DNA of 26,952 bases from a virus: positions 1 to 26,952 of the IMG/VR virus record IMGVR_UViG_3300046532_000866. One strand, written 5' to 3'. Below the pieces are notes generated by a model that saw only the letters and a list, made by a program, of their open reading frames with translations, did no database searches and was not told where the DNA came from. The first letter of the stretch is position 1, and each line of letters starts with the position of its first letter. The translations under genes were made by a program, and so were the position numbers. Shown piece after piece: positions 4,860 to 26,464 of the stretch.

Positions 4860-4888
4860 TTGACATTTCCTTAAAATCTTAGTATAAT
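4860..4888 (+). promoter_or_regulatory. sigma70-type promoter P3 (tRNA promoter)
   Basis: TTGACA at 4860-4865, 17 bp spacer, TATAAT at 4883-4888. It lacks the AGTTC element before the -35 that most of the other promoters carry. The predicted +1 near 4895 lies about 37 nt before the tRNA, so it appears dedicated to the tRNA. Confidence 0.88.
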
Positions 4889-4931: not shown

Positions 4932-5008
4932 GTCCTGCTAGCTTAAATGGATAGAGCAACGGCCTTCTAAGCCGTAGGTTGCAAGTTCAAGTCTTGCGTG
5001 GGACACCA
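4932..5008 (+). tRNA. tRNA-Arg (anticodon UCU)
   Basis: Full cloverleaf. The acceptor GTCCTGC (4932-4938) pairs with GTGGGAC (4998-5004) with two G-U pairs. D stem is GCTT/GAGC. The anticodon stem ACGGC/GCCGT encloses loop CTTCTAA, giving anticodon TCT. The T stem GCAAG/CTTGC encloses TTCAAGT. The discriminator is A and CCA is encoded (5006-5008). It reads AGA, a codon used heavily in this window, so it probably supplements the host pool. It has its own promoter and abuts promoter P4 on the 3' side. Confidence 0.97.
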
Positions 5009-5020
5009 GAAAAATAGTTC

Positions 5021-5049
5021 TTGACAAAAACCTAAAAACGAAGTATAAT
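5021..5049 (+). promoter_or_regulatory. sigma70-type promoter P4 (leaderless)
   Basis: AAAATAGTTC then TTGACA at 5021-5026, 17 bp spacer, TATAAT at 5044-5049. Placing the -10 at -12 to -7 puts +1 on A5056, the first base of the ligase ATG, so the message would have no leader. Confidence 0.94.
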
Positions 5050-5055
5050 ATACTC

Positions 5056-6006
5056 ATGAATAAAGATATAAGAACATTTTTAGGCAAGTGCCGCGATGCT
5101 TACTTCAATGGACGCCCTTTGGTGCCCGATGATGTGTATGACCGCCTTGTAGATAATATAAATACGGATGAAGTGGGTTCAGCTATTAACAGTCGTTATA
5201 AGCACCCCTTTCCTATGTATTCCCTCCAAAAAGTCTTCGCTAATGAAGATACCCCTCCTGATTACGCTGGTGAAGCTATAGTAACTACTACAAAGCTTGA
5301 CGGCGCAGCCGTGTCCTTGACATATATAAATGGTATCTTTCACCAAGCACTGACTAGAGGAGATGGCAAAGCGGGACTAGACATTAGTGATAAAATGATG
5401 CACATTATTCCTCCTACGCTAGAAACATCAATTAAAGAGCTATTCTCAGGTGTGAGACAAATCACAGGAGAAGTAGTAGCCCCCAAAGAGATTCCTAACT
5501 CTAGGAACTATGCGGCAGGTGCACTTAATTTGAAAGATGTTAACGAATTTAAAAAAAGAGACTTAACCTTTATTGCATACGGATTACAGAATCCTGTGGG
5601 CAGACGTTGGCTAGAAGATATGAACTTATTGAGCAATTGGTTCAATGTTATATCTGAATCTGATTGGTCGCAGTTCCCAAACGATGGAATTGTATTTCGC
5701 GTAGATAGATACGCTAGTTTTGAGAAGCTAGGTTACACTGCACACCACCCTCGCGGAGCATACGCTTACAAGACCAGGGCTGCAGGAGTAGTAACTAAAT
5801 TGCTAGGTGTGGAATGGAATACAGGTAAGAGTGGAGTTATTGCTCCTATTGCTCACCTAGAACCTATAAACATTGGAGGAGCTACAGTATCCAGGGCTAC
5901 ATTACATAATCTCGCATTTATTGATGAGATGATGCTAGAGATTGGATGTGATGTAGAAGTTATTAGAAGTGGGGAAATTATCCCCAAAATAGTGAGGAGA
6001 GTATGA
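5056..6006 (+). CDS. ligA: NAD+-dependent DNA ligase, adenylation + OB half (subunit A)
   Basis: 316 residues. Residues 10-30 keep a minimal NAD-binding Ia-like helix (DAYFNGRPLVPDDVYDRL). The nucleotidyltransferase domain follows, with catalytic K80 in TTKLDG, TRGDGKAGLDIS, GEVVAPKE, PNSRNYAAGALNLKD, DGIVFRVDR and AYKTRAAG. The OB fold comes next (TGKSGVIAPIAHLEPINI, TVSRATLHN, SGEIIPKI). The zinc finger, HhH and BRCT domains of full LigA (about 670 residues) are absent here and are encoded at 9752. Phage T5 also encodes NAD+ ligase as two subunits. It would seal nicks during replication. No ribosome binding site precedes the ATG and promoter P4 predicts a leaderless transcript. The end overlaps the next gene as ATGA. 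Confidence 0.95.
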   Translation: MNKDIRTFLGKCRDAYFNGRPLVPDDVYDRLVDNINTDEVGSAINSRYKHPFPMYSLQKVFANEDTPPDYAGEAIVTTTKLDGAAVSLTYINGIFHQALTRGDGKAGLDISDKMMHIIPPTLETSIKELFSGVRQITGEVVAPKEIPNSRNYAAGALNLKDVNEFKKRDLTFIAYGLQNPVGRRWLEDMNLLSNWFNVISESDWSQFPNDGIVFRVDRYASFEKLGYTAHHPRGAYAYKTRAAGVVTKLLGVEWNTGKSGVIAPIAHLEPINIGGATVSRATLHNLAFIDEMMLEIGCDVEVIRSGEIIPKIVRRV

Positions 6007-6191
6007 TTTTATACTTAGAAGAACAATTGATTAAGGCATACCGAGCGTATGTCACACACATTCCGCTAGGATCCACCATACCAGATATCGAATTCTTTAG
6101 GAAGATGATTGAGGAGGAGGATAACGCAGATTTTTTTGAGGAGTTATTGTATGAGTGGGAAACCCTTAGATCTCAACGAGAAACCCACTAA
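6003..6191 (+). CDS. small acidic helical protein
   Basis: 62 residues, starting in an ATGA overlap with the ligase stop. The sequence is helical and acidic (FRKMIEEEDNADFFEELLYE), with N-terminal YLEEQLIKAYRAYV. No family is recognised. It follows the ligase half directly and could be a partner, but nothing in the sequence proves this. Its 3' part overlaps a further small frame at 6151-6249. Confidence 0.6.
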   Translation: MILYLEEQLIKAYRAYVTHIPLGSTIPDIEFFRKMIEEEDNADFFEELLYEWETLRSQRETH

Positions 6192-6249
6192 ACCTAACAA
6201 CTGGGTTTACCAAAACCCTTGCGGGAGGCTAACCCATTGCCCTCTGTAG
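6151..6249 (+). CDS. 32-residue overlapping small protein
   Basis: ATG 6151 is preceded by GAGGAG at 6138-6143 with 7-nt spacing, one of the best ribosome binding sites in the region. The frame reads MSGKPLDLNEKPTKPNNWVY then QNPCGRLTHCPL, ending with TAG 6247-6249. Proline, asparagine and two cysteines suggest a small structured or metal-binding peptide. It overlaps the end of the 6003 gene and the start of the GIY-YIG-like gene. It is supported by start signal and position only. Confidence 0.5.
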   Translation: MSGKPLDLNEKPTKPNNWVYQNPCGRLTHCPL

Positions 6250-6611
6250 GAAAATATAACGAAACCTTCTTTAAAAATCATCCCGAAGTAGCAGAGCGCG
6301 AAGGTGTTCTGTATGGTGTCGTCTTAGTAAATAAGGAGACATACGAAAGGGAAGTGATTAAAGTTGGAATCGCTAGTGGGAAGGACTGGCGACACGTTTT
6401 AAAGCGTAGCCGAGGGTTCAAAGGTTATGACTTAAGAATTCAGCGAACCTGGAGTAGTACTCTATACGAAGTATTTTGTATGGAACAAATGCTTCACGCT
6501 AAGTACATAAGTGATAAATTAGAGCCTGCTCACAAGTTTGGAGGACATACAGAATGTTTCCAGATCACGAGCAAAATATTGGAGGATTTCCCAAAAAAAT
6601 GGAAACAGTAG
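6237..6611 (+). CDS. GIY-YIG-like nuclease-fold protein
   Basis: 124 residues from TTG 6237, which lies 9 nt after GGGAGG (6223-6228). TTG 6219 is an alternative, and the frame is closed by a stop at 6195-6197. The pattern GVLYGVVLVNKETYEREVIK, VGIASGK, then an R and a C-terminal EVFCMEQMLHAKYI and FGGHTECFQ resembles divergent GIY-YIG domains of the phage T5orf172/MUG113 type. There the G-x-Y, K-[IV]-G and downstream E-x-x-x-H make the nuclease core. It may be a free-standing nuclease or homing-type enzyme, and it sits between the two ligase halves. The match is by pattern, so medium confidence. Confidence 0.55.
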   Translation: MPSVGKYNETFFKNHPEVAEREGVLYGVVLVNKETYEREVIKVGIASGKDWRHVLKRSRGFKGYDLRIQRTWSSTLYEVFCMEQMLHAKYISDKLEPAHKFGGHTECFQITSKILEDFPKKWKQ

Positions 6612-6742
6612 TGATAGACAAGGAAAGGTATGTAGAGTCTCAAAAAGAATCATACAAACACAAATTCGAGGGCTGGTACTGGCATAGTGAGCTTAAAAAA
6701 TTTTATAGATGGGACGACTTGCCAAAATATGCACATAAATAA
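6599..6742 (+). CDS. 47-residue small protein
   Basis: ATG 6599 lies within the end of the GIY-YIG-like gene. GTG 6611 in a TAGTG overlap is an alternative. The nearest ribosome binding site is GGAGG at 6581-6585, a long spacing. The sequence is basic and aromatic (VESQKESYKHKFEGWYWHSE, FYRWDDLPKYAHK). No family is recognised. The reading frame ends 14 bp inside the oxygenase gene, consistent with coupled translation. Confidence 0.5.
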   Translation: METVVIDKERYVESQKESYKHKFEGWYWHSELKKFYRWDDLPKYAHK

Positions 6743-7286
6743 AGTTGGATGGACATACTTTTCAGTAGTTGAGAACTTCTTGACCGCTGAAGAGTGTAAG
6801 TGTATAATTGACTCAATTAAAGAATGGCAGTTGACTCAAATCCCAGCGGGTAAATACTCGGGTAGGGACTTCGGAGATGTAAGAAGAAAGCTCGGAGTAC
6901 CCCCAAAATTACTATACAAGGACAAATTTGACTGGATTTTTGGCAAATTTAACCACAATTCGTACAAATTTAACCTAATTGATAAGCATTCACATATGGT
7001 GAATCAGTATCACAAAGGAGATATTCTTGAATACCACACGGATGAGCACGAAACTGTCGAAGACTTATTCAAGGGAACTCCCGCTAATAGACTTAGCTGC
7101 TGTATCTACTTGAATGATAATTTTGAGGGTGGAGAGTTTGAACTTGAAGGTATAGATAAGTGGAAGCCGCAGATAGGAACAGCAATTATATTCCCAAGTG
7201 CACAGAGCCACAGAAGTAATTATGTTCGTAGTGGCACTAAGTTTAATTATACAGTTTGGAAGAAAGGGGTAAGAGGTGCTTATTAA
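6729..7286 (+). CDS. 2OG-Fe(II) dioxygenase (prolyl-4-hydroxylase / PKHD type)
   Basis: 185 residues from ATG 6729. An in-frame start at 6687 would add 14 residues. The N-terminus YFSVVENFLTAEECKCIIDS is typical of P4H-like enzymes. The Fe(II) triad is visible as H103 and D105 (EYHTDEH) and H161 (QSHRSNYV), with 2OG likely bound by K171 in GTKFNYTVW instead of the usual Arg. Core strands RLSCCIYLND, FEGGEFEL and GTAIIFPS are present, so the enzyme looks active. Substrate unknown: protein, nucleotide or small molecule are all possible. Its last 11 bp overlap the carbamoyltransferase start, a tight coupling that hints at hydroxylation followed by O-carbamoylation. Confidence 0.87.
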   Translation: MHINKVGWTYFSVVENFLTAEECKCIIDSIKEWQLTQIPAGKYSGRDFGDVRRKLGVPPKLLYKDKFDWIFGKFNHNSYKFNLIDKHSHMVNQYHKGDILEYHTDEHETVEDLFKGTPANRLSCCIYLNDNFEGGEFELEGIDKWKPQIGTAIIFPSAQSHRSNYVRSGTKFNYTVWKKGVRGAY

Positions 7287-8631
7287 AGGGATATCTGAGG
7301 GGTTTCATGATGCCTCAGTAGCATTAGTTCAAGATAACCAGATTCTATGGGCTAAACATGCCGAGAGGACTACAAGGAAGAAGAACGACAGAACCAACCC
7401 AGCGTCTTTACGAAATGTAGACGCAGATGCATCAGTTTTCTATGAAAACGTACCGATGAAAAACTTAAGACGTGCCAAGTTTGGTCAATCTCTTCTTTCG
7501 ACAAAAATATTTGATGAATGTGATTATAGCTTATTTCATCACGAAAGCCACGCAGCAGGAGCGTTCTATACCTCACCTTTTGATAAGGATGTTGTATGTC
7601 TCGTGATCGATGCGATTGGAGAGTGGACAACCAGCAGTATTTGGATATATCAGAATAAAAAATTGAAGAAAGTATATGAAGATTCATATCCACATAGTAT
7701 TGGCCTGTTCTATAGTGCTATAACGAAGCGTATTGGTTTGAAACCAAACGAAGATGAATATATAACTATGGGAATGGCGGCATACGGAGAGCCTTGTATT
7801 GATATGAGATATTGTTTCAATAAGTGGGCAAATTGGCATAAAGGATTTTCCCTAGATGACTTCAAAGGACACAGACCTGAAGATATAGCCGCAAGTGCCC
7901 AGTTACACGTCGAGGATGCAATACACAAGTTAGTAAGTGCAGCCTCCCATTGGGGAAAGAATTTATGTTATGCAGGTGGGGTTGCCCTCAACTGTGTAGC
8001 GAACAGCAAATTATTACACCAGTACTTTGACAATGTTTGGATTTATCCTAACCCTGGCGATGCTGGTAGTAGTTTAGGTGCGGCGTTAGGCTATAACAAT
8101 AAGAAAGTAGAATATAGTCCGTACTTAGGAACTAACATTGATAACGAGGTTAACCCCCGAGAAGTGGTTGACTATATATTAAAAAAGAAAGTAGTTGGAG
8201 TAGCAAATGGGAAAGCGGAATTCGGACCAAGAGCCTTGGGGAATCGATCTCTACTTGGTGATGTACGCTTTGATATTAAGCGTACTGTTAATAGAATTAA
8301 AAGACGCCAGAACTTCAGACCCTTTGCCCCAGCAATCCTGTCAGAGTTCGCAGACGAATACTTTGAAGGACAAATGAACGAGTACATGCAGTATACTGCT
8401 CAAGCAAAGCACGATTACTCTAGCGTAACTCATGTAGATGGCAGTGCCAGAGTGCAGATTGTAACCCCAGAGTGCACAAGCATACTCAGACCTATATTAG
8501 AAGAATATTATGAAAAGACTAAAGTACCTATGTTACTAAATACAAGTTTAAATATCAAAGGGCAACCAATGGTAGACACTTGGCAGGATGCTTTAGACTT
8601 CCAGAAGATGTACGGAGTTAAAGTATTTTGA
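7276..8631 (+). CDS. O-carbamoyltransferase, NodU/CmcH/TobZ family
   Basis: 451 residues from GTG 7276, with AAAGGGG at 7263-7269 as ribosome binding site. The Kae1-like N-domain shows GISEGFHDASVALV, the metal-binding H88-x3-H92 (HHESHAAG), YSAITKRIGLKPNEDE, ITMGMAAYGEP and GGVALNCVAN. The YrdC-like C-domain shows FGPRALGNRSLLGD, RQNFRPFAPAIL and MLLNTSLNIKGQPMVD. The family transfers the carbamoyl group of carbamoyl phosphate, via carbamoyl-AMP, onto a hydroxyl. It is shorter than the usual 550-600 residues but keeps all core blocks. Metavirome work has linked phage members to carbamoylation of 5-hydroxymethylcytosine. No hydroxymethylase is visible here, so the acceptor is open. Confidence 0.93.
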   Translation: MLIKGISEGFHDASVALVQDNQILWAKHAERTTRKKNDRTNPASLRNVDADASVFYENVPMKNLRRAKFGQSLLSTKIFDECDYSLFHHESHAAGAFYTSPFDKDVVCLVIDAIGEWTTSSIWIYQNKKLKKVYEDSYPHSIGLFYSAITKRIGLKPNEDEYITMGMAAYGEPCIDMRYCFNKWANWHKGFSLDDFKGHRPEDIAASAQLHVEDAIHKLVSAASHWGKNLCYAGGVALNCVANSKLLHQYFDNVWIYPNPGDAGSSLGAALGYNNKKVEYSPYLGTNIDNEVNPREVVDYILKKKVVGVANGKAEFGPRALGNRSLLGDVRFDIKRTVNRIKRRQNFRPFAPAILSEFADEYFEGQMNEYMQYTAQAKHDYSSVTHVDGSARVQIVTPECTSILRPILEEYYEKTKVPMLLNTSLNIKGQPMVDTWQDALDFQKMYGVKVF

Positions 8632-9563
8632 GTATCTTATTCGCAGGTTGTAGCTTCACAAATGGCATGGAGCTAAAGGACAAGAAAGTAGACAGGTTCA
8701 GTCAGATAGTTGCTAGAGAGTTTGGAATGCTTGAGTGGAACGAAGGAAAGATTGGGGCAGGTAACGACTACATACAGCGAAGTGTATTCAATGCAGTCCT
8801 AGGAAATAAGAAACATTATAGTACCGCAATTAAGAATATAAAAGTAATAAAACATACTTATGACTCAAGTCCTACAGATACTAGACCCACCTATCCTCTG
8901 GTAGAGGGTGCAATGAAAGACGGATACTATGAACAAGTAATCCAGTCTAGTAGGGATTCTAATGGGGCAGGTACCCCTGATCTTGTAGTATGTATGTGGT
9001 CTGGCATAAACAGACACGAACTACTTAGACTTTCTAGTATTACTAATAATTGGAGTTGGGTTGTTAATACTTGGGCATCCTTCGGCTTAGATCTAAAGAC
9101 TCTGAGGGCTACACCAGATAGTCTACCCTATATAGACAAACAATTCGCAGAGAGTGGTGATGGTCTAATCGTAGCAGGATATCTAAAGCGTATTAGAAAT
9201 GCACACATGAATCTTAGACTAACTATTGGACATATGCTCTCAGTAAAGTACCTTTTAGAAGCTAAAGGAATTCCTCAGCTTCACTATTTATTCTCGCAAG
9301 GGCAGTACAGACCCCTTCTTCCAGTACTTGACTGGGACACTTTCGAGAATACTAATGTATGGTGGGATTCACTAGACTTAAGCAAGGATCAGTTAGTTGC
9401 AGAATTGCCTGTTTTAAAATCAGAAGGTTTTTATGATCTGACTAAAAGACTAAAATTACCTATAGGTCCAAAGGATCACCCCCTAGAACAAGCCCACGCG
9501 CATATGGCGAGGCGCATCATAACGGATATAAAAAATAATGAATTTAATACAGCGTTTGATTAA
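8628..9563 (+). CDS. SGNH/GDSL-like hydrolase
   Basis: 311 residues from TTG 8628, overlapping the upstream stop as TTGA. Block I is FAGCSFTNGMEL with the putative nucleophile Ser (GDS replaced by GCS). The GAGNDYI segment fits block II (conserved Gly) and DLVVCMWSGINRHELL fits block III (Asn). The C-terminal GPKDHPLEQAHAHMA supplies the D-x-x-H catalytic pair (D-H-P). This architecture is common in cyanophage and other marine phage proteins annotated as GDSL-like lipases or esterases. Substrate is unknown, possibly host polysaccharide or lipid esters or deacylation of a modified metabolite. It follows the carbamoyltransferase without a gap. Confidence 0.75.
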   Translation: MSILFAGCSFTNGMELKDKKVDRFSQIVAREFGMLEWNEGKIGAGNDYIQRSVFNAVLGNKKHYSTAIKNIKVIKHTYDSSPTDTRPTYPLVEGAMKDGYYEQVIQSSRDSNGAGTPDLVVCMWSGINRHELLRLSSITNNWSWVVNTWASFGLDLKTLRATPDSLPYIDKQFAESGDGLIVAGYLKRIRNAHMNLRLTIGHMLSVKYLLEAKGIPQLHYLFSQGQYRPLLPVLDWDTFENTNVWWDSLDLSKDQLVAELPVLKSEGFYDLTKRLKLPIGPKDHPLEQAHAHMARRIITDIKNNEFNTAFD

Positions 9564-9675
9564 GAAAATCAAAATACTATACTTCGAGTGGCAGTTGCGT
9601 AGAAACTACACACCAGACACCTATGTCTATGAAGATGACGAAATTTTCGAACCCGAAGAAGAAAGTCAGGAATAA
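9538..9675 (+). CDS. 45-residue small protein
   Basis: ATG 9538 overlaps the end of the hydrolase gene and the stop TAA is at 9673-9675. The N-terminal half is amphipathic and basic (MNLIQRLIKKIKILYFEWQL), while the C-terminal half is strongly acidic (YVYEDDEIFEPEEESQE). The polarised charge distribution is unusual for random sequence and fits a small binding protein or host-factor inhibitor. The frame fills an otherwise empty 110-bp gap before promoter P5. The ribosome binding site is weak. Confidence 0.5.
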   Translation: MNLIQRLIKKIKILYFEWQLRRNYTPDTYVYEDDEIFEPEEESQE

Positions 9676-9686
9676 AAATATAGTTC

Positions 9687-9715
9687 TTGACAAGAGGTTA
9701 AATTTCCTCTATAAT
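9687..9715 (+). promoter_or_regulatory. sigma70-type promoter P5
   Basis: ATAGTTC then TTGACA at 9687-9692, 17 bp spacer, TATAAT at 9710-9715. The predicted +1 is near 9722, about 30 nt before the ligase B ATG, with an AAGAGAAAAG purine tract as ribosome binding site. Confidence 0.93.
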
Positions 9716-9751
9716 ATACAATATAAATAAGAAAAGAGAAAAGAAATCTAA

Positions 9752-10507
9752 ATGAGTCAAATTTTACCACCAACTACCTGTCCTTCCTGTGAAGAAGAAG
9801 TATCTTGGGTCGGAGACCTAATTTACTGTCTTAACAAGATATGTCCAGCACAATGGAGTAAAAAACTCGAACATTTCGGAAAAAATCTTAAAATCAAAGG
9901 ATTCGGTCCTGCTTGCATTAGTAAGTTAGGAATCGAAGACTACCCAGAGCTGTACAAGCTTACAGTTGAGGATATTTCCTCAAGACTAGGTTCAGAGAAG
10001 TTGGCTAGTAATCTAATCGCTGAGATTGAGAAATCAAAATCAGTTGACTTACAGACCTTACTGCCAGCTTTTTCTATACCACTTTTCGGTCGGTCAGCCT
10101 CTCAAAAGTTATGCGAGACAATATCTTCACTAGATGATGTCTCTGAGAAAAGTTGTGCCGAAGCCGGTATCGGTCCGAAAGCGACAGCAAACCTTCTGCA
10201 ATGGTTAGAAGACGAATTTAAACCTAATAGTTATAAAACGACCCTTCCCTTTACTTTCTCGGCAACGAGATTCGTTAAAAGAGAGATTATAGGGACAGTT
10301 TGTATTAGTGGTAGACTCAATTCATATCCCAGCAAAGCTCGTGCCGCAGAGGCTCTGGAAAAATACGGCTTTGCCGTAAAAAACAGTCTGACAAAGGACT
10401 GCACTCACCTTATAAATGAGTCAGGAATTGAATCAGCCAAAACTAAGGCAGCGCAAGATCGCGGTGTCATAATCATAACAAACATTTTAAACTTAATTGG
10501 AGAATAA
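9752..10507 (+). CDS. ligB: NAD+-dependent DNA ligase, zinc finger/HhH/BRCT half (subunit B)
   Basis: 251 residues. The Cys4 zinc finger uses C10, C13, C26 and C31 (TTCPSCEEE, YCLNKICPAQ) and matches the LigA C-x-N-x-x-CPAQ block. Helix-hairpin-helix repeats follow from about 45 to 160 (KIKGFGPACISKLGIEDYPE, GIGPKATANLLQWLE). A BRCT domain occupies about 178-250 (GTVCISGRLNSYPSKARAAE, GFAVKNSLTKDCTHLI). It contains no nucleotidyltransferase domain and would act with the half at 5056. It has its own promoter of the same class, so the two halves could be co-expressed although about 3.7 kb apart. T5 is the precedent for a two-subunit ligase. Confidence 0.93.
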   Translation: MSQILPPTTCPSCEEEVSWVGDLIYCLNKICPAQWSKKLEHFGKNLKIKGFGPACISKLGIEDYPELYKLTVEDISSRLGSEKLASNLIAEIEKSKSVDLQTLLPAFSIPLFGRSASQKLCETISSLDDVSEKSCAEAGIGPKATANLLQWLEDEFKPNSYKTTLPFTFSATRFVKREIIGTVCISGRLNSYPSKARAAEALEKYGFAVKNSLTKDCTHLINESGIESAKTKAAQDRGVIIITNILNLIGE

Positions 10508-10509
10508 AA

Positions 10510-11232
10510 ATGGCATTACCAAAATGGACAGATGAACGAACTTCATCTCTAGAGAGCTTCGTCGGCTCTGAAAGCCCCGTATCACAAGTTACTGTAGCTA
10601 GCGCTGCAACTGAACTAGAAACTTCTGTAAGAAGCATCAGTTCTAAACTTAGAAAAATGGGCTACGACGTAGAACTTGCTTCATCTAGCAACACTAAATC
10701 TTTTAGTGACGCACAAGAAGCTACCCTATCTGCATTCGTTACTGATAACTCAGGATCGTACACATATGCAGAAATCGCAGCAAACTTTGAAGGCGCAGCT
10801 TTTTCAGCTAAGTCAATTCAAGGAAAAATCCTTTCAATGCAACTTACCGAGCACGTTAAACCTGCCCCTAAAGTTGAATCTGTAAAGACTTATAACGAGT
10901 CTGAAGAAGGTACTTTCGTAACTATGGTTAACGATGGTGCATTCATTGAAGAGATTGCTGAAAGCCTAGGTAAGAGTGTAAACTCTATCCGAGGAAAAGC
11001 ACTTTCATTGTTAAGAGCTGGCGAAATTAACGCTATCCCTAAGCAGAAAGAAACTAAAGGTTCAGGCAAAGCAGACCCTTTAGCTGACATCCAAATTGAC
11101 GGCATGACTGTAGACGCTATTGCTGACTCGATTGGCAAAACTGTAAGGGGTGTTAAAACCATGCTTACGAGACGTGGCTTAGTATGCGCAGACTATGACG
11201 GATCAGCTAGAAAAGAAAGAGTTACATCTTAA
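10510..11232 (+). CDS. four-repeat HTH (SANT/Myb-like) DNA-binding protein
   Basis: 240 residues from ATG 10510, with GGAGAA just upstream. Four helical repeats are visible, starting at about KWTDERTSSLESFVG, KSFSDAQEATLSAFVTD, KTYNESEEGTFVTMV and near ADIQIDGMTVDAIADS. Each ends in a putative recognition helix of the form S-[VI]-[RK]-x-[IK]-x-x-[KM]-L (TSVRSISSKLRKMG; NSIRGKALSLL; RGVKTMLTRRGL). Repeat 4 closely resembles the domain of the protein at 3789 (MILTRAGVYV against TMLTRRGLVC), so the two are paralogues. Multiple tandem units suggest cooperative or bipartite DNA binding. It lies between ligB (2-bp gap) and a strong terminator. Regulator or DNA-coating role is inference. Confidence 0.78.
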   Translation: MALPKWTDERTSSLESFVGSESPVSQVTVASAATELETSVRSISSKLRKMGYDVELASSSNTKSFSDAQEATLSAFVTDNSGSYTYAEIAANFEGAAFSAKSIQGKILSMQLTEHVKPAPKVESVKTYNESEEGTFVTMVNDGAFIEEIAESLGKSVNSIRGKALSLLRAGEINAIPKQKETKGSGKADPLADIQIDGMTVDAIADSIGKTVRGVKTMLTRRGLVCADYDGSARKERVTS

Positions 11233-12658: not shown

Positions 12659-13379
12659 TAATAATTACCGTGATTTCCAAGTAGGCATATTTGCCATAGA
12701 CATAGATGAAAAGTTCTTTAGTTACTTCCCTAAGAAGTGGCAACATGCTAAAGCCGCTGAAAGTTGGCTTAGGCACAATGAACACAGAATTTACTTACGA
12801 CTATGGACGTTCATAGATTCAGTTCTAGAACGACATAATAATGGGAAAATGGGCTTCCGTGACCCCATAATTGTATGGAGCAATATAGAAACTAAAGAAT
12901 TTAACATTCACCCAGGAGCAAATAGAATATTATTAAAAATGCTTTTACCAGAGGTTAGGCAAGTAGGTTGGGTAATAGACTCAACGTGCGCTAGTAGAGA
13001 CCAGTACAAAGGTATTTTTAATAACATTAAAGAAATTCAGAGAGATAATCAAGGCAATAACTTAATTCTCTGGAATGCTCATCATAGAACAGGCAGGGGA
13101 GGTACAGATCAGTATGATTTCTCCCTAGTCTCAGATAAGTATTTAGGTAACTCTACCTACGATACCCACGAACGCAGAGATAGATGGCTAAAAATAAGAC
13201 GCAGAAAGGGATTTGCTTGTTATGTAAACGATAAATTTATATATAATATAGGCGAACCCAAGTTTGATGATAAGTATAATATAACTACCCCTATGGGTAT
13301 CTATCAGTTGTTTTTACACTACTTTTTCGGGTACTCTTTAGATAGGTGGAAAACTAAGTATTTCAGGAGAAAATTATGA
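12648..13379 (+). CDS. conserved marine-phage protein, unknown function
   Basis: 243 residues from GTG 12648, with GGGGGAA at 12634-12640. It is very rich in aromatic and basic residues (YRDFQVGIFAIDIDEKFFSY, KAAESWLRHNEHRIYLRLWT, DRWLKIRRRKGFACYV). The order of motifs (DPIIVWSN, KEFNIHPGANR, VGWVIDSTCASRDQY) recalls an uncharacterised protein encoded near replication genes in marine phages. Recurrent histidines and arginines (HHRTGRGG) suggest nucleic-acid or phosphate contact, but no catalytic signature was found. It overlaps the helicase gene and ends as ATGA with the cupin gene. Confidence 0.68.
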   Translation: MIYNNNYRDFQVGIFAIDIDEKFFSYFPKKWQHAKAAESWLRHNEHRIYLRLWTFIDSVLERHNNGKMGFRDPIIVWSNIETKEFNIHPGANRILLKMLLPEVRQVGWVIDSTCASRDQYKGIFNNIKEIQRDNQGNNLILWNAHHRTGRGGTDQYDFSLVSDKYLGNSTYDTHERRDRWLKIRRRKGFACYVNDKFIYNIGEPKFDDKYNITTPMGIYQLFLHYFFGYSLDRWKTKYFRRKL

Positions 13380-13720
13380 AATCAGGGAAAGTATGGGGAC
13401 AAACGGAACTAATACATGCCAATGGTGTGCTAGAGTTCCATAGAGTAGAGTTTAAAGCTGGTTTTAAGTGTTCAGAACACGAACATCAGTTTAAGTGGAA
13501 CGGCTTCTTTGTGGAGTCAGGAAAGATGATTGTAAGATGCTGGCAGAATGATTACGAGTTAGTAGATGAGACTATCTTAGGCCCCGGCGACTTTACACAA
13601 GTTAAGCCAGGCGTAGTCCACCAGTTTGAAGGACTAGAGGGTGGAGTTGCCTTTGAGCTCTACTGGGCAGAATTTAACCATAATGATATTAGAAGGAGAA
13701 CAGTAGGTGGAAAAAAGTAA
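13376..13720 (+). CDS. cupin-domain protein
   Basis: 114 residues, with AGGAGA at 13365-13370. A single small beta-barrel is evident. The first cupin motif has metal-binding histidines in SEHEHQFKWNGFFVESGK, and the second has GPGDFTQVKPGVVHQFEG. Between and after them lie regular short strands (MIVRCWQND, VAFELYWAEF). Single-domain cupins bind a divalent metal and may be isomerases, dioxygenases or sugar-binding proteins. The length and motif order resemble mannose-6-phosphate isomerase-type small cupins. Substrate is unknown. It shares the replication operon, with ATGA coupling upstream. Confidence 0.78.
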   Translation: MKSGKVWGQTELIHANGVLEFHRVEFKAGFKCSEHEHQFKWNGFFVESGKMIVRCWQNDYELVDETILGPGDFTQVKPGVVHQFEGLEGGVAFELYWAEFNHNDIRRRTVGGKK

Positions 13721-14151: not shown

Positions 14152-14690
14152 TGGCTAACGACAGAGTAAGTAGGGAAACTGCCGAGTTAGTCCCAATGCC
14201 CCCACACACTTGGTATATGCGGTCAATAAATTGGTTACTAGAGCAACCCAAAGTAAAAGAAAATATAGAAGCGGTACCCCTGAACCAGCCCCTTATGGAC
14301 TCCCTGATGAGTCACGGAATGAAAGCTCCTATCCTAACTATGCCAAACTGGTATCCTATAGCGGGTAGTCAGCGATTAAGAGCGTACGCTGAGATAGTTA
14401 AAGATTTTCCCGAGCTAGGAGAACAAGAAATAAGGGTATGTCGTATAGATAAAGAATATTGGTTAGTATGGTATCTATGGGGAGACAAGGACTTTAGGGA
14501 TAAAGCAGTTGCAGTTTATTTCCAGATGGTAGAATTAGTATGGAAGTCGAGGTACTACGAAGATGTTGAAGATCCAAGTGGTGTGAAAATGACAGATTTT
14601 GAGAAATTGGGGGATCAATTAGACTGGAAACATAAAAGTGTCCTTGGAAGTGAGAGAATTAAATCCATGCAAAAGAAAAATAAAACTTGA
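14151..14690 (+). CDS. ParB-like (ParB/Srx fold) protein
   Basis: 179 residues from ATG 14151 in a TAATG overlap. The segment QPLMDSLMSHGMKAPILTMP, a short strand, then YPIAGSQRLRAYAEI matches the ParB/Srx nucleotide-binding core, where an I-x-x-x-G-x-x-x-P-[IV] element precedes G-x-x-R-x-x-A. Strand EIRVCRID follows. The C-terminal half (KYWLVWYLWGDKDFRDKAVA and beyond) is not a normal ParB HTH. Phages use this fold in nucleases and in small-molecule or DNA-processing proteins, so partitioning is not implied. The stop codon overlaps the -35 of promoter P6. Confidence 0.62.
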   Translation: MANDRVSRETAELVPMPPHTWYMRSINWLLEQPKVKENIEAVPLNQPLMDSLMSHGMKAPILTMPNWYPIAGSQRLRAYAEIVKDFPELGEQEIRVCRIDKEYWLVWYLWGDKDFRDKAVAVYFQMVELVWKSRYYEDVEDPSGVKMTDFEKLGDQLDWKHKSVLGSERIKSMQKKNKT

Positions 14691-14715
14691 CACCAAGTGA
14701 AAATTCCTGTATAAT
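14687..14715 (+). promoter_or_regulatory. sigma70-type promoter P6 (near-leaderless)
   Basis: TTGACA at 14687-14692 (overlapping the upstream stop TGA), 17 bp spacer, TATAAT at 14710-14715. It has AAAAC rather than AGTTC before the -35. The predicted +1 is A14722, only 4 nt before the primase ATG. Confidence 0.9.
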
Positions 14716-14725
14716 ATACTTATAA

Positions 14726-15568
14726 ATGATAGCAATAGACTTATTACAAGAAAAACAAATGCCGTTTACTGTCAAAGGACAGGACGCACTAATAGCATGC
14801 CTAAATCCTGAGCATGATGATAGTAACCCAAGCCTTCGAGTAGATAGAGTAACAGGCGTAATGCACTGTTTCGCTTGTGGTTATAAAGGTAACTTATTTA
14901 CATACTTCGGTGCACCTGAGAGTCCACTAGAAGTAAAATTACATAGAATTAAAGAAAAGATTGCAAAAACCCGTTCTGAAACTGTAGGTATTCAACTCCC
15001 AGAAGACCGAATCGATTGGAAAGGTGGTCCGTACAGGAACATCAGTGAGGAAACTCTTAAGATATGGCAGGCTTTCACTTGGAATGTTCCAAAGTTTGAA
15101 GGCAGGATCATCTTTCCCATTCGAGACTTAACAGGTAAAACCATTGCACTCTTAGGGAGAACCATTGCTGGCGGTGTTGGGAATGAGAAGTACTATATTT
15201 ACCCACATGGGGTAAAGATGCCGTTTACACCAGCCAAGGTAAAAACAATCCAGAACAGAGTGATTCTGGTAGAAGGAATTTTTGATTGTCTCAATCTATG
15301 GGACAATGGCTTGAAGAATACAGTTTGCTGTTTCGGAACACAGCAAATGGATTGGTACAAGTTATCTCTGCTCAAACTACAAGGAGTGCAGGGAATAGAT
15401 ATTATATTTGACGGAGACGAAGCTGGAGTAAAGGCTTCGGAACAAATAAAAACGCTGGCACTAGAGATGGAATTGTCAGTACAAATCATTAAACTAAGAG
15501 ATGGACAAGACCCTGGCGGGTTCAGTCCAGATCAAGTTAGAAAGTTGAAAGCAAAATTATATGGATAG
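14726..15568 (+). CDS. DNA primase, DnaG-type (CHC2 zinc finger + TOPRIM)
   Basis: 280 residues. The N-terminal zinc finger uses C25, H30, C48 and C51 (ACLNPEHDDSNPSLR, MHCFACGYKGN). The TOPRIM core follows, with the catalytic Glu in RVILVEGIFDCLN and the D-x-D in IIFDGDEAGVKASEQ. It lacks a helicase domain, so it must work with the DnaB-like helicase at 11297. It is compact relative to bacterial DnaG (about 580 residues) because the C-terminal helicase-binding domain is absent. It is transcribed from P6 with almost no leader and no ribosome binding site, so initiation is probably leaderless or by read-through. It overlaps the nuclease gene by 8 bp. Confidence 0.93.
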   Translation: MIAIDLLQEKQMPFTVKGQDALIACLNPEHDDSNPSLRVDRVTGVMHCFACGYKGNLFTYFGAPESPLEVKLHRIKEKIAKTRSETVGIQLPEDRIDWKGGPYRNISEETLKIWQAFTWNVPKFEGRIIFPIRDLTGKTIALLGRTIAGGVGNEKYYIYPHGVKMPFTPAKVKTIQNRVILVEGIFDCLNLWDNGLKNTVCCFGTQQMDWYKLSLLKLQGVQGIDIIFDGDEAGVKASEQIKTLALEMELSVQIIKLRDGQDPGGFSPDQVRKLKAKLYG

Positions 15569-16094
15569 TTTAGAACTTCAGAAAGCAGTCTTTGGATTAC
15601 ATACTCGTAGATTCGGCACAGTCGCCGAGATTATGATTAAAAAGATTATAAAATCAGATACAAGTACAAAGTTGAATTACGATCTATTTGAAACTTCTTC
15701 TTCTTCTAGGATAGAGTGTAAATTTTCACGAGTTCAAAAGAAAGCAGAGCTGAAGATAACCGAGAATAATATTTTCCAAGCCATACAATGCGAAGCCAAT
15801 CGCGATATTCAGTATCACCAATGGCAAGACTACGACTGGGATTGTAATATCCAGCAAGTCAAGAAAGAAGAATTTGATATACTCTTTTACGGAGTATTCT
15901 TTAAAGATATGGTGTTGATCTTTAAGGTGGATAGTCGTAATATCGGCAAAGATATGAAGTATTCAAACAAACAACACAGAGGTAATACAGGAGAAGGACA
16001 GTTCCATTTAAACCGAGCTACTTTCAAATACCACCTAGATTACCATTTATTTAAAACATTAACTTATGGAGAATTATTAGAATGGCTAAAATAG
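15561..16094 (+). CDS. PD-(D/E)XK nuclease-like protein
   Basis: 177 residues from ATG 15561. A PD-(D/E)XK core is visible: D41 in NYDLFETSSSS, a turn, then E52-C-K54 in RIECKFSRVQ, preceded by helix GTVAEIMIKKIIKSD. Later strands (DILFYGVFFKDMVLIFKVD) complete the fold. Restriction-endonuclease-like phage proteins of this size are common. It sits between primase and polymerase, which favours a role in recombination, repair or host DNA degradation. Pattern evidence only. Its 3' end overlaps the polymerase start by 13 bp. Confidence 0.62.
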   Translation: MDSLELQKAVFGLHTRRFGTVAEIMIKKIIKSDTSTKLNYDLFETSSSSRIECKFSRVQKKAELKITENNIFQAIQCEANRDIQYHQWQDYDWDCNIQQVKKEEFDILFYGVFFKDMVLIFKVDSRNIGKDMKYSNKQHRGNTGEGQFHLNRATFKYHLDYHLFKTLTYGELLEWLK

Positions 16095-18364
16095 CACTTA
16101 TAGAAACCAAGCCAACAAGTACAAACTTCGATAAATATTTCGAGTTTGAATTTGACCGCTTTGCCCTATGTTCTGATAGTTCAGTAGCGAAAGTTCTCAA
16201 GAAAGATGTTGACCTAGAACTCAATCCAGATGATTACGATTGGCTAATCTTAGTGGGTGCAGAAGCATTCAAACAGTTTACTAGAAAGACATCGGTAACC
16301 GAATACAATGGCAAGATAATAGATGAGAAGTTTTTAGCTCTCATGAATCCTGCGATTATTAAGTTCAAACCTGAAGCTAAGAAAGCCTTTGAGGATGCTA
16401 TTCAAAGTATCTCAGGCTATGTTAGTGGGGAACTTAAGATTGAAAAACTATCAGAAGATAAATGTTACGGCATAGACGATAAAGAAACAGCACTCAAGTT
16501 TGTACAGGCAGCAATAGATGCGCCACTTCCGTACATAGCACTTGATTCCGAGACCTCTGCATTATATTGTAGAGATGGATATATGCTTGGTTTCTCTATG
16601 TCTTATGAAGCCGATCACGGCATATATTGTGACTGTGATGTAATTGATGAAGAAGTAGAAGCAAAAATGCAGGAACTCTTCAACAAGAAAATTGTAGTAT
16701 TTCACAATGCGAAATTTGATTTACAATGGTTTATTTACCATTTTAACTTCGAGTTTCCAAACTTCGAGGATACAATGCTTATGCATTATATGTTCGATGA
16801 AAACCCTGGCACACATGGTCTTAAACAGCTAGCGATGAAGCATACTCCTTTCGGGGACTATGAAAAACCATTAGAAGATTTTATAGCCCAGTACAGGAGA
16901 TCTCATGGCATACTAAAAGAAGCGTTTAGTTATGACCTGATTCCTTTTGAAATAATGAAAGACTACGCTGCTATGGACGCAGTTGTAACTTTTGCCTTAT
17001 ATCAAAAGATGAAGCCAGCAATCCTGAAGAACAAGAGACTCTTATGGGTCTACGAGAATATTCTACTAGAAGGCTGTAACTTTTTAGTACAAGTCGAAAG
17101 TAATGGAGTTCCTTTCGATAAAGAAAGACTAACCTTTGCCCAAGGTATAATGACGGAAGATATAGCAAAAGCAGTTGCAGAACTATACGAATTTCCTGAA
17201 GTTAGACAATTTGAAGTAGCAAAAGGTAAAGACTTTAACCCAAACTCCACAGTACAACTTCGATCCCTGTTATTTGACTTTATTGGTCTAAATCCGACAG
17301 GTAAGAAGACTGGCACAGGTGCGCACAGTACAGATGCAGAAGTCTTAGGACAACTCGCTGAAGACCATGCAGTACCTAAGCATATCCTAGAGATACGGCA
17401 GAAGAATAAGATAAAGACTACTTATCTTGATAAGATTATTCCTAATCTTGACATGGATAGTAGACTCCGCACAGGTTTTAACTTGCACGGCACTACTTCT
17501 GGTCGATTATCCTCTAGTGGTAAATTGAATATGCAACAGCTTCCTAGGGATAACCCTACGGTTAAAGGTTGTATCAAAGCAAGACCAGGACACAAAATCG
17601 TCTCTATGGACTTAACAACGGCAGAAATGTATGTGGCCGCTGTTTTGGCGAAAGACGTAGGACTGCAGAACGTATTTAAAGAAGGAGGCAACTTCCATTC
17701 TAATATCGCTAAGCAAGTCTTTAATCTGCCCTGTGAGGCTGAGCAAGTCGATGAATTTTACAAAGACAAAAGGCAACAAGCTAAAGCCGTTTCTTTCGGC
17801 ATTATGTATGGTGCTGGCCCAGCTAAGATATCTTGGCAGGTATCGAAGGACTCAGGTACAGAGTTCTCAATGCATGACGCACAGTCAGTTATCAAAGACT
17901 ACTTCCAGTCATTCCCTAACCTGAAAAAATGGTTGGATGATTGTGGTTCGTTCATTCGTTCCAATGCGTATATCTATTCCGAGTTTGGCAGGAAGCGTCG
18001 TCTTCCCAATGCCAGGAGCAAGGACAAAGGTATCGCTTCTCATGAAGTACGAAGTGGAATTAACTTTCTAGTGCAATCCGTCGCATCGGACATAAACCTA
18101 TTGGGTGCGATAGATATGCAACATTACATCAATAGAAAAGGAATGAAATCCAAAATCTTCGCACTTGTGCATGACTCAGTTCTAGCAGAAGTTCCAGAAG
18201 ATGAAATGGAAATCTATTGTGATAACCTGAAAACATTCGTTCAAAAAGACCGAGGTTTTTCAATACCCAACTGCCCTGTAGGATGTGACTTTGAAATAGG
18301 TGAAGACTACAGTTTCAGCAAATGGGGGAAATTTTATAATGAAATATTTAAAAGCGACAACTAA
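16082..18364 (+). CDS. polA: DNA polymerase, family A, with 3'-5' exonuclease
   Basis: 760 residues. Exonuclease motifs are D155/E157 in ALDSETSA, VFHNAKFDLQW and Y295-x3-D299 in YAAMDAV. Polymerase motifs are GRLSSSGKLNMQQLP, motif A with D510 (VSMDLTTAEMYV, Glu kept), motif B R564-x3-K568-x3-F572 (RQQAKAVSFGIMYG) and motif C H697-D698-S699 (LVHDSVLAEV). Motif C has Ser where E. coli Pol I has Glu (HDE). F572 aligns with E. coli Phe762, as in the Phe-type viral polymerases. An N-terminal domain (1-145) precedes the exonuclease and is not a flap nuclease. It is the phage replicative polymerase. GGAGAA precedes the ATG. Confidence 0.97.
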   Translation: MAKIALIETKPTSTNFDKYFEFEFDRFALCSDSSVAKVLKKDVDLELNPDDYDWLILVGAEAFKQFTRKTSVTEYNGKIIDEKFLALMNPAIIKFKPEAKKAFEDAIQSISGYVSGELKIEKLSEDKCYGIDDKETALKFVQAAIDAPLPYIALDSETSALYCRDGYMLGFSMSYEADHGIYCDCDVIDEEVEAKMQELFNKKIVVFHNAKFDLQWFIYHFNFEFPNFEDTMLMHYMFDENPGTHGLKQLAMKHTPFGDYEKPLEDFIAQYRRSHGILKEAFSYDLIPFEIMKDYAAMDAVVTFALYQKMKPAILKNKRLLWVYENILLEGCNFLVQVESNGVPFDKERLTFAQGIMTEDIAKAVAELYEFPEVRQFEVAKGKDFNPNSTVQLRSLLFDFIGLNPTGKKTGTGAHSTDAEVLGQLAEDHAVPKHILEIRQKNKIKTTYLDKIIPNLDMDSRLRTGFNLHGTTSGRLSSSGKLNMQQLPRDNPTVKGCIKARPGHKIVSMDLTTAEMYVAAVLAKDVGLQNVFKEGGNFHSNIAKQVFNLPCEAEQVDEFYKDKRQQAKAVSFGIMYGAGPAKISWQVSKDSGTEFSMHDAQSVIKDYFQSFPNLKKWLDDCGSFIRSNAYIYSEFGRKRRLPNARSKDKGIASHEVRSGINFLVQSVASDINLLGAIDMQHYINRKGMKSKIFALVHDSVLAEVPEDEMEIYCDNLKTFVQKDRGFSIPNCPVGCDFEIGEDYSFSKWGKFYNEIFKSDN

Positions 18365-18503: not shown

Positions 18504-19151
18504 ATGGAAATGTTCAAAGGAAAACGTGTAGCAATAACAGGACATACAAGCGGAATTGGTAAAGAAATTTACGAGTACTGTCAATTTCATGGTGCAGAGG
18601 TCAAGGGCTTCTCACGTACTAGTGGCTTCGATTTAAGAGATGGAGGTGATGATATCATCAATGAAATTCTTAGATGGGATGCTGATATAGTATTTAATCA
18701 TGCGTGGACTCCGAGAACACAGAACAAGATTCTTAAAATATTACACACACAATGGGAAAAGTATAATAACAAAGTAATTATCAATACAGGCTCGGCTACC
18801 TGTTATTACTCTATAGGTGCAGACATCTATGAGAAGGACAAGTCAGAGCTTCGAGATTATTGTATTCAATCCGCACAGCTTTATCCTCATTCTAACAAGT
18901 GTAGAGTACACAATGTTAGTATGGGTTGGACTAACTCTGCAATTTTAACGGGGGTAGAAGATGGGGAGTATTTTATTGACCCATACGAAGCCGCACTTGT
19001 TTTAATTAACTTATGTCAGCCCCAGAATTATGTCATGTCTGAAGTAGTAGTGAATTCTAAATTCAAGCCTATGTCAGAAATGGTGTACTTACGAGATAAA
19101 GCATCGCAGAATGTAATTACGTCACTTGGAGAGCCGCGTGCCAACGATTGA
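18504..19151 (+). CDS. short-chain dehydrogenase/reductase (SDR) family
   Basis: 215 residues, with AGGAGA at 18490-18495. The Rossmann NAD(P)-binding motif is RVAITGHTSGIGKEI (T-G-x3-G-I-G), followed by DLRDG and the DADIVFNHA strand in place of the usual N-N-A-G. A catalytic-type S in NTGSATCYY and Y-x3-K in YEKDKSEL are present. The enzyme lacks a long C-terminal substrate domain, so it is compact. It likely reduces or oxidises a small carbonyl or sugar substrate. It starts the accessory block and overlaps the QueC-like gene by 14 bp. Confidence 0.85.
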   Translation: MEMFKGKRVAITGHTSGIGKEIYEYCQFHGAEVKGFSRTSGFDLRDGGDDIINEILRWDADIVFNHAWTPRTQNKILKILHTQWEKYNNKVIINTGSATCYYSIGADIYEKDKSELRDYCIQSAQLYPHSNKCRVHNVSMGWTNSAILTGVEDGEYFIDPYEAALVLINLCQPQNYVMSEVVVNSKFKPMSEMVYLRDKASQNVITSLGEPRAND

Positions 19152-19938
19152 AGTTAGTTCAAAAGAAAACAGTACCTTAAAAAGCACCGCTGAAATGAGA
19201 AAGGCTATAGAACAGGCTGATCCTAGAACTAATACTTATATGCCACTTAGTGCAGGAGTAGAGTCCACCGCGGCTTTACTTTATGCAGTACGTGACCCAG
19301 ATTTGCATCCCTTTTGTGTATACTGGTATGAACAACGCTATGGTATGTTTTCGGACGCTATGGCGTTTTATACACAGAAACAAGCAGAGTATTTTAATCT
19401 ACCTTATGGTAATGATAAATCTATGCTATCACTTTTGCAACATACGAGGGAAGTCCCGATCATAGTATCGGGACTATCTTCTTTTATGTCTGTAGTGTTG
19501 GGGCAGCCCAACGGAATTAAATTTAAATGGTTTATGATGGGAGCTAACGCAGAAGATGATATGCGTATGCGTTTACAGTTTAGGGAGTACCGTAAGATTA
19601 TGGCTCTCTTCGCTAGTGATGTCCTAGATGGATCAGGAGTTGCCTTATGGGCAGCTAGAGAAACGCCCCAAGTTATGAATCCATTGGATTTCTTGACAAA
19701 ATCGGAAATGTACGCTTTAATAATTAGAGAAGAGCCGAAACTTGCAGAAATGATGTGGACTTGTATAGTACCTAAGGGCGAGATTAGAAAAAATGGAAAG
19801 ATAGTAGGATATGAGGCTTGTAATACCTGCTATAAATGTTTAGAACTAAACCAAGCTAAAAAGACTGCTGCTGACGCAGTATTCAGATACCAAGAAGGTA
19901 TAAAATATCTTAGTAGTATTCGGAAGGACATGATGTAA
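19138..19938 (+). CDS. QueC-like PP-loop ATPase
   Basis: 266 residues from GTG 19138, with GGAGAG at 19128-19133. TTG 19126 is an alternative. The ATP-pyrophosphatase loop is LSAGVEST (residues 37-44), a variant of S-G-G-x-D-S-T with Ala and Glu substitutions. Features of QueC/ExsB are M-G-A-N-A-E-D-D and a terminal Cys cluster MWTCIVPKGE and EACNTCYKCLELNQA (a four-Cys zinc site). QueC makes preQ0 from CDG, and phages use this pathway for 7-deazaguanine DNA modification. The other pathway enzymes (QueD, QueE, FolE, a transglycosylase) are not in this window, so a PP-loop enzyme of a different specificity is also possible. Confidence 0.75.
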   Translation: MPTIEVSSKENSTLKSTAEMRKAIEQADPRTNTYMPLSAGVESTAALLYAVRDPDLHPFCVYWYEQRYGMFSDAMAFYTQKQAEYFNLPYGNDKSMLSLLQHTREVPIIVSGLSSFMSVVLGQPNGIKFKWFMMGANAEDDMRMRLQFREYRKIMALFASDVLDGSGVALWAARETPQVMNPLDFLTKSEMYALIIREEPKLAEMMWTCIVPKGEIRKNGKIVGYEACNTCYKCLELNQAKKTAADAVFRYQEGIKYLSSIRKDMM

Positions 19939-21707: not shown

Positions 21708-22237
21708 GTAAGTTAATAACTGAAGAGTATAGGGACATACTGAAAAAGACACATGCAGAAGGCAAATGGGGCAATACAGGTGCCCAAGGCGGATTCTTCA
21801 GAAATATTCTATTCTTAGCAAATAGATTTAAAGCTAAAGAGATTTTAGACTATGGAGCAGGATGGGGTGGAGTTAAAATCCGGATGGCAAAGGAACGCCC
21901 AGATATAGCAGTATACGAATATGAGCCTGCGAGGGACGAAGTATCTGCACTTGCTACACCACGAAAGTTCGTAATATGTATAGATGTACTAGAACATATA
22001 GAACCCGATTGCTTAGAAGCAGTTTTAGAAGATATAGCACGATTAACAATATTTAGAGGATACCTTTCTATAGCTACTGAACCTGCACACAGAATACTAA
22101 CAGATGGTAGAAATGCACATTTAATTGTAGAAGAACCAGAATGGTGGGCAAAAAAGTTAAAAAATCACTTTAACTTAGTACAACAACGACCAGAGAAAGG
22201 GTCTTGCTCTTTCGTTATAAAGCCGAAAATTGTATGA
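21704..22237 (+). CDS. SAM-dependent methyltransferase (class I)
   Basis: 177 residues from ATG 21704 (ATGA overlap; GGAGAAA upstream). Motif I is KEILDYGAGWGGVKIRMAKE, the acidic end of strand 2 is YEYEPARDE, and motif IV-V is FVICIDVLEHIEPDCLEAVL. The later LTDGRNAHLIVEEPEWWAKK is a family feature I have seen in phage methyltransferases of unknown target. The D-P-P-Y-type motif of N6-adenine or N4-cytosine DNA methyltransferases and the P-C motif of 5-cytosine enzymes are absent, so a nucleic acid base is not the obvious target. It ends as ATGA with the glutaredoxin gene. Confidence 0.85.
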   Translation: MSKLITEEYRDILKKTHAEGKWGNTGAQGGFFRNILFLANRFKAKEILDYGAGWGGVKIRMAKERPDIAVYEYEPARDEVSALATPRKFVICIDVLEHIEPDCLEAVLEDIARLTIFRGYLSIATEPAHRILTDGRNAHLIVEEPEWWAKKLKNHFNLVQQRPEKGSCSFVIKPKIV

Positions 22238-22545
22238 GTAAGGGAAGTAAACAAAGACCTACAAATTATAGCAAATATTCCGAGAATTGGGATAAGATAT
22301 TTAGGAGAAAAATGAAAGTAATTATATATGGAAAGGACAGTTGTCCTTATTGCGACATGGCTAAAAAGCTATGCGAGCAAAAAGAATTGGAGTTCCAGTA
22401 CAAAAAACTAGGTAGAGATTATGACGCACTTGAAATGGCACTAGAATTTCCTACAGCAAGAACATTCCCACAGATTATAGTGGACGGAGACAAGATTGGT
22501 GGGTATAACGAATTTAAGTCAGTACTAGTGAGGGCACAGGTATGA
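22234..22545 (+). CDS. glutaredoxin with N-terminal small-protein fusion (two candidate starts)
   Basis: 103 residues from ATG 22234 (ATGA overlap), or 77 from in-frame ATG 22312 with AGGAG at 22303-22307. The first 26 residues (MSKGSKQRPTNYSKYSENWD...) resemble a short conserved phage protein usually encoded on its own. The rest is glutaredoxin: VIIYGKDSCPYC with the C-P-Y-C active site, FPTARTFPQIIVDGDKIGGY with the cis-Pro and G-G-Y glutathione/thiol site. It would supply electrons for disulfide reduction such as ribonucleotide reductase. No reductase gene is in view. It is ATGA-coupled to the next gene. Confidence 0.9.
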   Translation: MSKGSKQRPTNYSKYSENWDKIFRRKMKVIIYGKDSCPYCDMAKKLCEQKELEFQYKKLGRDYDALEMALEFPTARTFPQIIVDGDKIGGYNEFKSVLVRAQV

Positions 22546-26046: not shown

Positions 26047-26075
26047 TTGACAAATCCTCATGAAATTGGTATAAT
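26047..26075 (+). promoter_or_regulatory. sigma70-type promoter P7
   Basis: AAAATAGTTC then TTGACA at 26047-26052, 17 bp spacer, TATAAT at 26070-26075. The predicted +1 (about 26081-26082) lies inside the next reading frame, after its ATG at 26078, so P7 can serve the SSB gene at 26477 but not a start at 26078. Confidence 0.93.
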
Positions 26076-26077
26076 AT

Positions 26078-26464
26078 ATGATATATTTTAATTGGAAGAA
26101 GATTTGGGGCACGACTCAAGGGGATGTTGGAGACATCATCACCATACTGAGAATGATTACTCTAAAATTGTATCCAAAAAATTATTACGATAAGACCATT
26201 AGGTTTTATGGGAAAAACTTTCATGGTAGTTCGTTCCTGGTTAATCCAGTAGCGCTACTTGAAAAAGGGCGTGCCTTTAGCGATAAAGAGGTTGCGGAGT
26301 ATGTAGGTGTTGCTTCATTCCGTAACTATCACGAGTACGTAAAAACAAAAGACACCACACTAGATCTTATTTACTGTGCAGTAAGTGAGAACACTATTAA
26401 CCAAAACAGACTGCTCGAACTAAGGGATGGAATAATCCATTTCAAGTACGAGGAGACATTATAA
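26078..26464 (+). CDS. conserved phage protein, unknown function
   Basis: 128 residues from ATG 26078. It has the pattern of a recurring marine-phage protein: an N-terminal IYFNWKKIWGTTQGDVGDII, then LYPKNYYDKTIRFYGKNFHG, a SSFLVNPVALLE strand and a helical C-terminus (EVAEYVGVASFRNYHEYVKT, LDLIYCAVSENTI). It is often found next to SSB or recombination genes, which fits its position directly before the ssDNA-binding gene. No catalytic motif is seen. Its ATG lies only 2 nt after the -10 of P7, so it must be translated from longer transcripts or from a downstream start. Confidence 0.65.
   Translation: MIYFNWKKIWGTTQGDVGDIITILRMITLKLYPKNYYDKTIRFYGKNFHGSSFLVNPVALLEKGRAFSDKEVAEYVGVASFRNYHEYVKTKDTTLDLIYCAVSENTINQNRLLELRDGIIHFKYEETL

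Follow-up and report, generated by a model that had tools for sequence, protein, structure and literature searches.

Described two-gene ligases

The two-gene NAD+-dependent ligase of the T5 type is already known; what is new at the locus described here is an accessory island between the two genes and a predicted leaderless start of ligA. The split of the T5 ligase is cited in a passage of PMC1684257, after Wang et al. 2005. In T5, ligA (T5.116) and ligB (T5.117) are followed by D5, the D6 helicase, primase and pol, and a promoter is annotated ahead of each ligase gene. The two genes lie 202 bp apart with no gene in the gap. VspSw_1 and Ceto share the T5 gene order and have gaps of 683 bp and 1,134 bp, respectively; the gap is ∼190 bp in Akh-2 and 192 bp in Providencia phage vB_PreS_PR1. 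In PR1, the ligA–ligB–helicase stretch is as in T5, with ligB followed by one further ORF and then by the DNA helicase. A relative of each half is present in more than 900 phage records, and in hundreds of Demerecviridae the two ligase genes occupy this same place, beside D5, helicase, primase and polymerase. The PR1 ligase has been solved as a heterodimer on nicked DNA (9HU3, 9I5I). Our literature searches on split or heterodimeric phage ligases found little, and no paper for 9HU3.

We analysed a stretch of 26,952 bases, a whole virus record that we refer to as the window. Its LigA subunit (316 aa; 5056..6006, + strand) comprises domain Ia, the nucleotidyltransferase domain with K80 of the KLDG motif, and the OB fold. 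The LigB subunit (251 aa; 9752..10507, + strand) comprises the C4 zinc finger (C10, C13, C26 and C31), HhH and BRCT parts. As in T5, there are two genes with their own promoters, the split falls between the OB fold and the zinc finger, and the neighbours are of the D5–helicase–primase–pol type. The order in the window is ligA, insert, ligB, D5-like protein, DnaB-like helicase, primase and polymerase; the D5-like regulator (10510..11232, + strand; PHROG 323) is a conserved T5-type neighbour of ligB, and the polymerase (16082-18364) was named by sequence and place. The parallel with T5 that a first, sequence-only reading of this DNA had drawn holds. Unlike the 202 bp gap of T5, however, the gap of the window measures 3.7 kb and contains genes for a GIY-YIG protein, an oxygenase, a carbamoyltransferase and an SGNH hydrolase. 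The PR1 ligase, the best solved match of both halves, is likewise encoded by two genes, but it lacks the insert and is clearly diverged in sequence. E. coli LigA (2OWO) and the fused LigA of Citromicrobium phage RXM have the domain order and catalytic residues seen in the window, but each is one polypeptide with a longer domain Ia.

The ligase halves of the window

The sequence-only reading had proposed that the two genes hold complementary LigA domains, and profile searches bore this out. The ligA half matched PF01653 (3.5e-29), PF03120 (3.8e-23) and PHROG 3359 (1.2e-94), and the ligB half matched PHROG 3498 (2.9e-57) and had a BRCT match; its zinc finger and HhH parts were visible through alignment and model, not through Pfam. 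On the TIGR00575 profile the ligA half stops at position 377 and the ligB half begins at 389, so the two are complementary and non-overlapping. The split falls after E. coli residue 391, and in T5, VspSw_1, Ceto and Akh-2 it corresponds to E. coli residue 391–401.

In the alignment with E. coli LigA, whose numbering is used here, the ligA half retains Y22, D32, Y35, D36, K115, D117, G118 and R136, and also E173, R200, D285 and K314; the KxDG catalytic lysine motif and the NMN-site residues of domain Ia are present. All four zinc cysteines are retained in the ligB half. H23 is replaced in the window as it is in T5. R208, R277, K290 and R333 are substituted in the window halves; the same holds for T5, VspSw_1 and Ceto at all four positions and for Akh-2 at most of them. 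A sequence search of the PDB gave 9HU3/9I5I as the top match for both halves (4.2e-62 for ligA and 3.7e-27 for ligB). An AlphaFold model of the ligB half (mean pLDDT 82.5) returned 9HU3 as the first match in a fold search, followed by LigA structures. In 13 long relatives, each contig has a single adenylation gene of the LigA type, and we found no ATP-dependent ligase.

These comparisons strongly suggest that ligA and ligB of the window encode a heterodimeric NAD+-dependent ligase of the T5 (Demerecviridae) type, which was very probably split already in the common ancestor with T5. From the homology to 9HU3/9I5I, the two products are expected to form a heterodimer and to seal nicks. By analogy with T5 ligA/ligB and the PR1 heterodimer, subunit A would bind NAD+ and form the AMP-lysine at K80, while subunit B, with its zinc finger, HhH and BRCT parts, would clamp the nick; sealing would then need both subunits.

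Genes between the ligase halves

The insert contents named by the sequence-only reading, a GIY-YIG-like protein, an oxygenase, a carbamoyltransferase and a hydrolase within the ∼3.7 kb between the halves, were all recovered by Pfam, PHROG or model. All features of the interval are on the + strand. A 62-aa ORF (6003..6191) overlaps the ligA stop and is present in the window's own subclade; its homology to the small genes at the same place in VspSw_1 and Ceto was unsupported (best E 0.57). It is followed by the T5orf172/GIY-YIG-type protein (6219..6611, TTG start; PF10544, PHROG 681), whose T5orf172 match is barely above the cut-off and in which the fold's LYG...KVG, R and E positions are conserved. 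A second 62-aa ORF (6554..6742) is conserved in close relatives. Next come a 2OG-Fe(II) oxygenase (6687..7286; PF13640), the true start of which is likely the ATG at 6729, a NolO/TobZ-type O-carbamoyltransferase (7276..8631, GTG start; PF02543/PF16861, PHROG 1601) and an SGNH/GDSL-fold hydrolase (8628..9563, TTG start) with GCSF, GAGN and DHP motifs. The model of the hydrolase (mean pLDDT 86.6, pTM 0.85) matches SGNH/GDSL esterases; the structure matches are individually weak (best 7e-4), and nearly all of the top ones have the SGNH fold. A 45-aa ORF (9538..9675), read from the sequence, follows the hydrolase and precedes the ligB promoter. Profiles of the GIY-YIG protein, carbamoyltransferase, SGNH hydrolase and oxygenase had no match in the searched stretches of T5, Ceto, VspSw_1 and Akh-2.

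The carbamoyltransferase is nearest to phage Nol-like enzymes, including those of cyanophages and pelagiphages, and these phage relatives suggest a marine habitat for the clade. By sequence it belongs to the same family as the TobZ, NodU and novobiocin O-carbamoyltransferases and as a phage carbamoyltransferase that was shown to modify 5-hydroxymethylcytosine (5hmC) in DNA (PMC8670742). The island would most likely act on a small molecule, sugar or glycan by carbamoylating one of its hydroxyls, with the SGNH protein as a putative partner esterase.

The phage enzyme shown to act on 5hmC, which has the same fold, together with the location of the island in the replication gene block, would fit a different role, in which the island makes a hypermodified base: an oxygenase or hydroxymethylase would give a hydroxylated pyrimidine and the carbamoyltransferase would cap it, comparable with 5-carbamoyloxymethylcytosine (PMC8670742). 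We consider this improbable. Thymidylate synthase/dCMP hydroxymethylase (PF00303) was absent from 13 long relatives, two of them longer than 100 kb; ThyX was not found in seven relatives, and many island-bearing relatives lack the oxygenase. The window enzyme has the canonical ALGNR where the 5hmC enzyme has ALCNT. Across the clade, the motif reads FGPRALGNRS in all 44 carbamoyltransferases where it is readable, against FGPRALCNTT in the 5hmC enzyme, and substituted GxR positions did not occur among them. The missing PF00303 and the ALGNR motif disfavour carbamoylation of 5hmC, and a small-molecule, sugar or glycan substrate is the more likely of the two.

History of the ligA–ligB interval

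We compared 74 non-redundant relatives with both halves, among the matches listed from four IMG/VR scans; these scans used proteins of the window itself as queries, and the sample is hence non-random. Among these listed matches, all 74 have separate halves with the GIY-YIG gene in the interval, and the carbamoyltransferase–SGNH hydrolase pair is present in 47. The ligA–ligB gap, again among the matches listed, is 431–1,562 bp in relatives without the island (one case of 2,697 bp) and 2,624–5,877 bp in those with it.

On a tree of ligA, ligB and D5 (72 rows, quick search, SH-aLRT only, with several long branches joining at the root), the island requires a single gain (branch support 95) and a single loss (L072), two changes in all. 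The GIY-YIG gene and the island arrive at different nodes of this tree. In 24 of 27 island-less relatives (for example L222 and L207), the TGA stop of the GIY-YIG gene sits in the TTGACA −35 box of the ligB promoter, and in island-bearing relatives this promoter is found 110–137 nt past the hydrolase, with one exception. The point at which the island was inserted therefore lies after the GIY-YIG gene but ahead of the ligB promoter, so that the ligB expression unit was left whole.

From these observations we propose the following order of events. The ligA–ligB split came first, because the two genes are already separate in cultured relatives that lack the insert. The GIY-YIG/T5orf172 gene then became fixed in the interval in the window's clade, and one sublineage later gained the carbamoyltransferase–SGNH island, often with the 2OG oxygenase, between this gene and the ligB promoter. 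The interval would be a permissive site because ligB has its own promoter, which explains how the gap could grow without severing ligB. What was suspected to be a gene break thus becomes an ordered history of split, GIY-YIG gene and metabolic island, and the locus clearly illustrates a cargo site flanked by the genes for the two subunits of an enzyme.

The sequence-only reading had suggested an insertion into or between ancestral ligase genes, possibly helped by a homing-type nuclease. Its accessory insert stands; the splitting of an ancestral ligase by that insert does not. In one version, the insert would have broken an intact ligase gene in the window's own lineage, carried in by the GIY-YIG nuclease as a homing element. 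A T5orf172/GIY-YIG gene with its fold positions kept is truly in the interval, and HNH homing-type genes, hegI and hegJ, are annotated near the same region in T5. However, the gene-order comparison shows the split with neither GIY-YIG gene nor island in T5, PR1, VspSw_1, Ceto and Akh-2, which contradicts a split caused by the insert, and the GIY-YIG gene and the island did not arrive together. Pairwise distances among ligA, ligB, D5, the GIY-YIG protein and the carbamoyltransferase correlate at 0.80–0.87; those of the latter two against ligA, ligB and D5 give r of 0.80–0.85, and those of the GIY-YIG protein against the ligase r of 0.80–0.84. This co-divergence, together with the presence of the gene in every one of the relatives (among the matches listed), argues against active or recent homing, for which a sporadic, mobile distribution is expected. 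We regard an insert-driven split as very unlikely; an ancient role of the GIY-YIG nuclease in opening the site may nevertheless have existed. A decaying ligase with neither half functional, which might be read from a ligA half shorter than residues 1–391 of bacterial LigA and from the differing conserved arginines, is scarcely credible, as the frames are open, the catalytic and zinc residues are intact, ligA and ligB diverge similarly and in correlation across relatives, and the homologous heterodimer was solved on nicked DNA.

One relative of 102,910 bases (L041) has ligA at one end of its contig and ligB at the other. This order is sensible only if the genome is circularly permuted, and the contig may therefore be near complete.

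Promoters and the predicted leaderless start of ligA

Each half was also said to have its own promoter of the same class, and we found TTGACA-N17-TATAAT, a 12/12 match, at both. The ligA promoter (5021..5049, + strand) has its −10 element ending 6 nt before the ATG. The ligB promoter (9687..9715, + strand) lies downstream of the island and is followed by a 36-nt leader; leaders of ligB in the relatives are mostly 25–36 nt. A third sigma-70-type promoter of this sequence (4860..4888, + strand; 12/12) is located upstream of a tRNA-Arg (TCT; 4932..5008, + strand; ARAGORN). This tRNA precedes ligA in some close relatives only, and we therefore rejected it as a clade feature.

The promoter before ligB was present at 11/12 or better in 74 of 78 relatives. 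For ligA, 72 loci were examined (68 from IMG/VR and 4 cultured), and 62 of the 68 IMG/VR relatives have the promoter. The distance from TATAAT to the ATG is exactly 6 nt in 58 of these 62 and 7 nt in three, with 14 different 6-mers filling this space across the relatives. In those 58, TATAAT thus begins 12 bp ahead of the ATG, and bacterial leaderless genes are recognised by a −10 signal placed ∼12 bp before the start codon (PMC3160421). The next ATG of the ligA half is M54, and a misplaced start can therefore be discounted. Under the same test, ligA of T5 is not leaderless.

Among 296 promoters from 78 non-redundant loci, an ATG with an open frame stands exactly 6 nt after the promoter in 88, at 5 nt in one and at 7 nt in 13. 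The main groups with the 6-nt spacing are ligA (54) and a second gene family (18). The scanned stretches of T5 and Ceto had no case of it. The second family (MNIFILDKDIDKCAEAHVDKHVVKM..., L209:3403 and ∼20 relatives) shows the spacing in 18 of 21 cases.

From the promoter spacing, transcription of ligA is predicted to start so as to give a leaderless mRNA, and ligB would be translated from a leadered one. We tentatively extend this, with confidence a little short of even, to a large uncultured T5-like clade in which ligA and several replication/repair genes would be strictly leaderless under perfect sigma-70-type promoters, with ligB leadered. If so, the subunits of one enzyme would be set by two modes of translation initiation, and their ratio could track the state of the ribosomes during infection. 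A clade-wide predicted leaderless start of a replication gene is testable, and it was not seen in the examined cultured relatives T5 and Ceto.

Two further perfect promoters of the window are near-leaderless. In the first (14687-14726), the ATG of the primase is 10 nt after the −10 element, and in the second (26047-26078), the ATG of a 128-aa ORF is 2 nt after it. The window also contains other auxiliary genes: a cupin (13376-13720), a weak SDR match (18504-19151), a possible PP-loop-type protein read from the sequence (19126-19938), a glutaredoxin (22204-22545) and an asparagine synthase-like protein (22812-24320).
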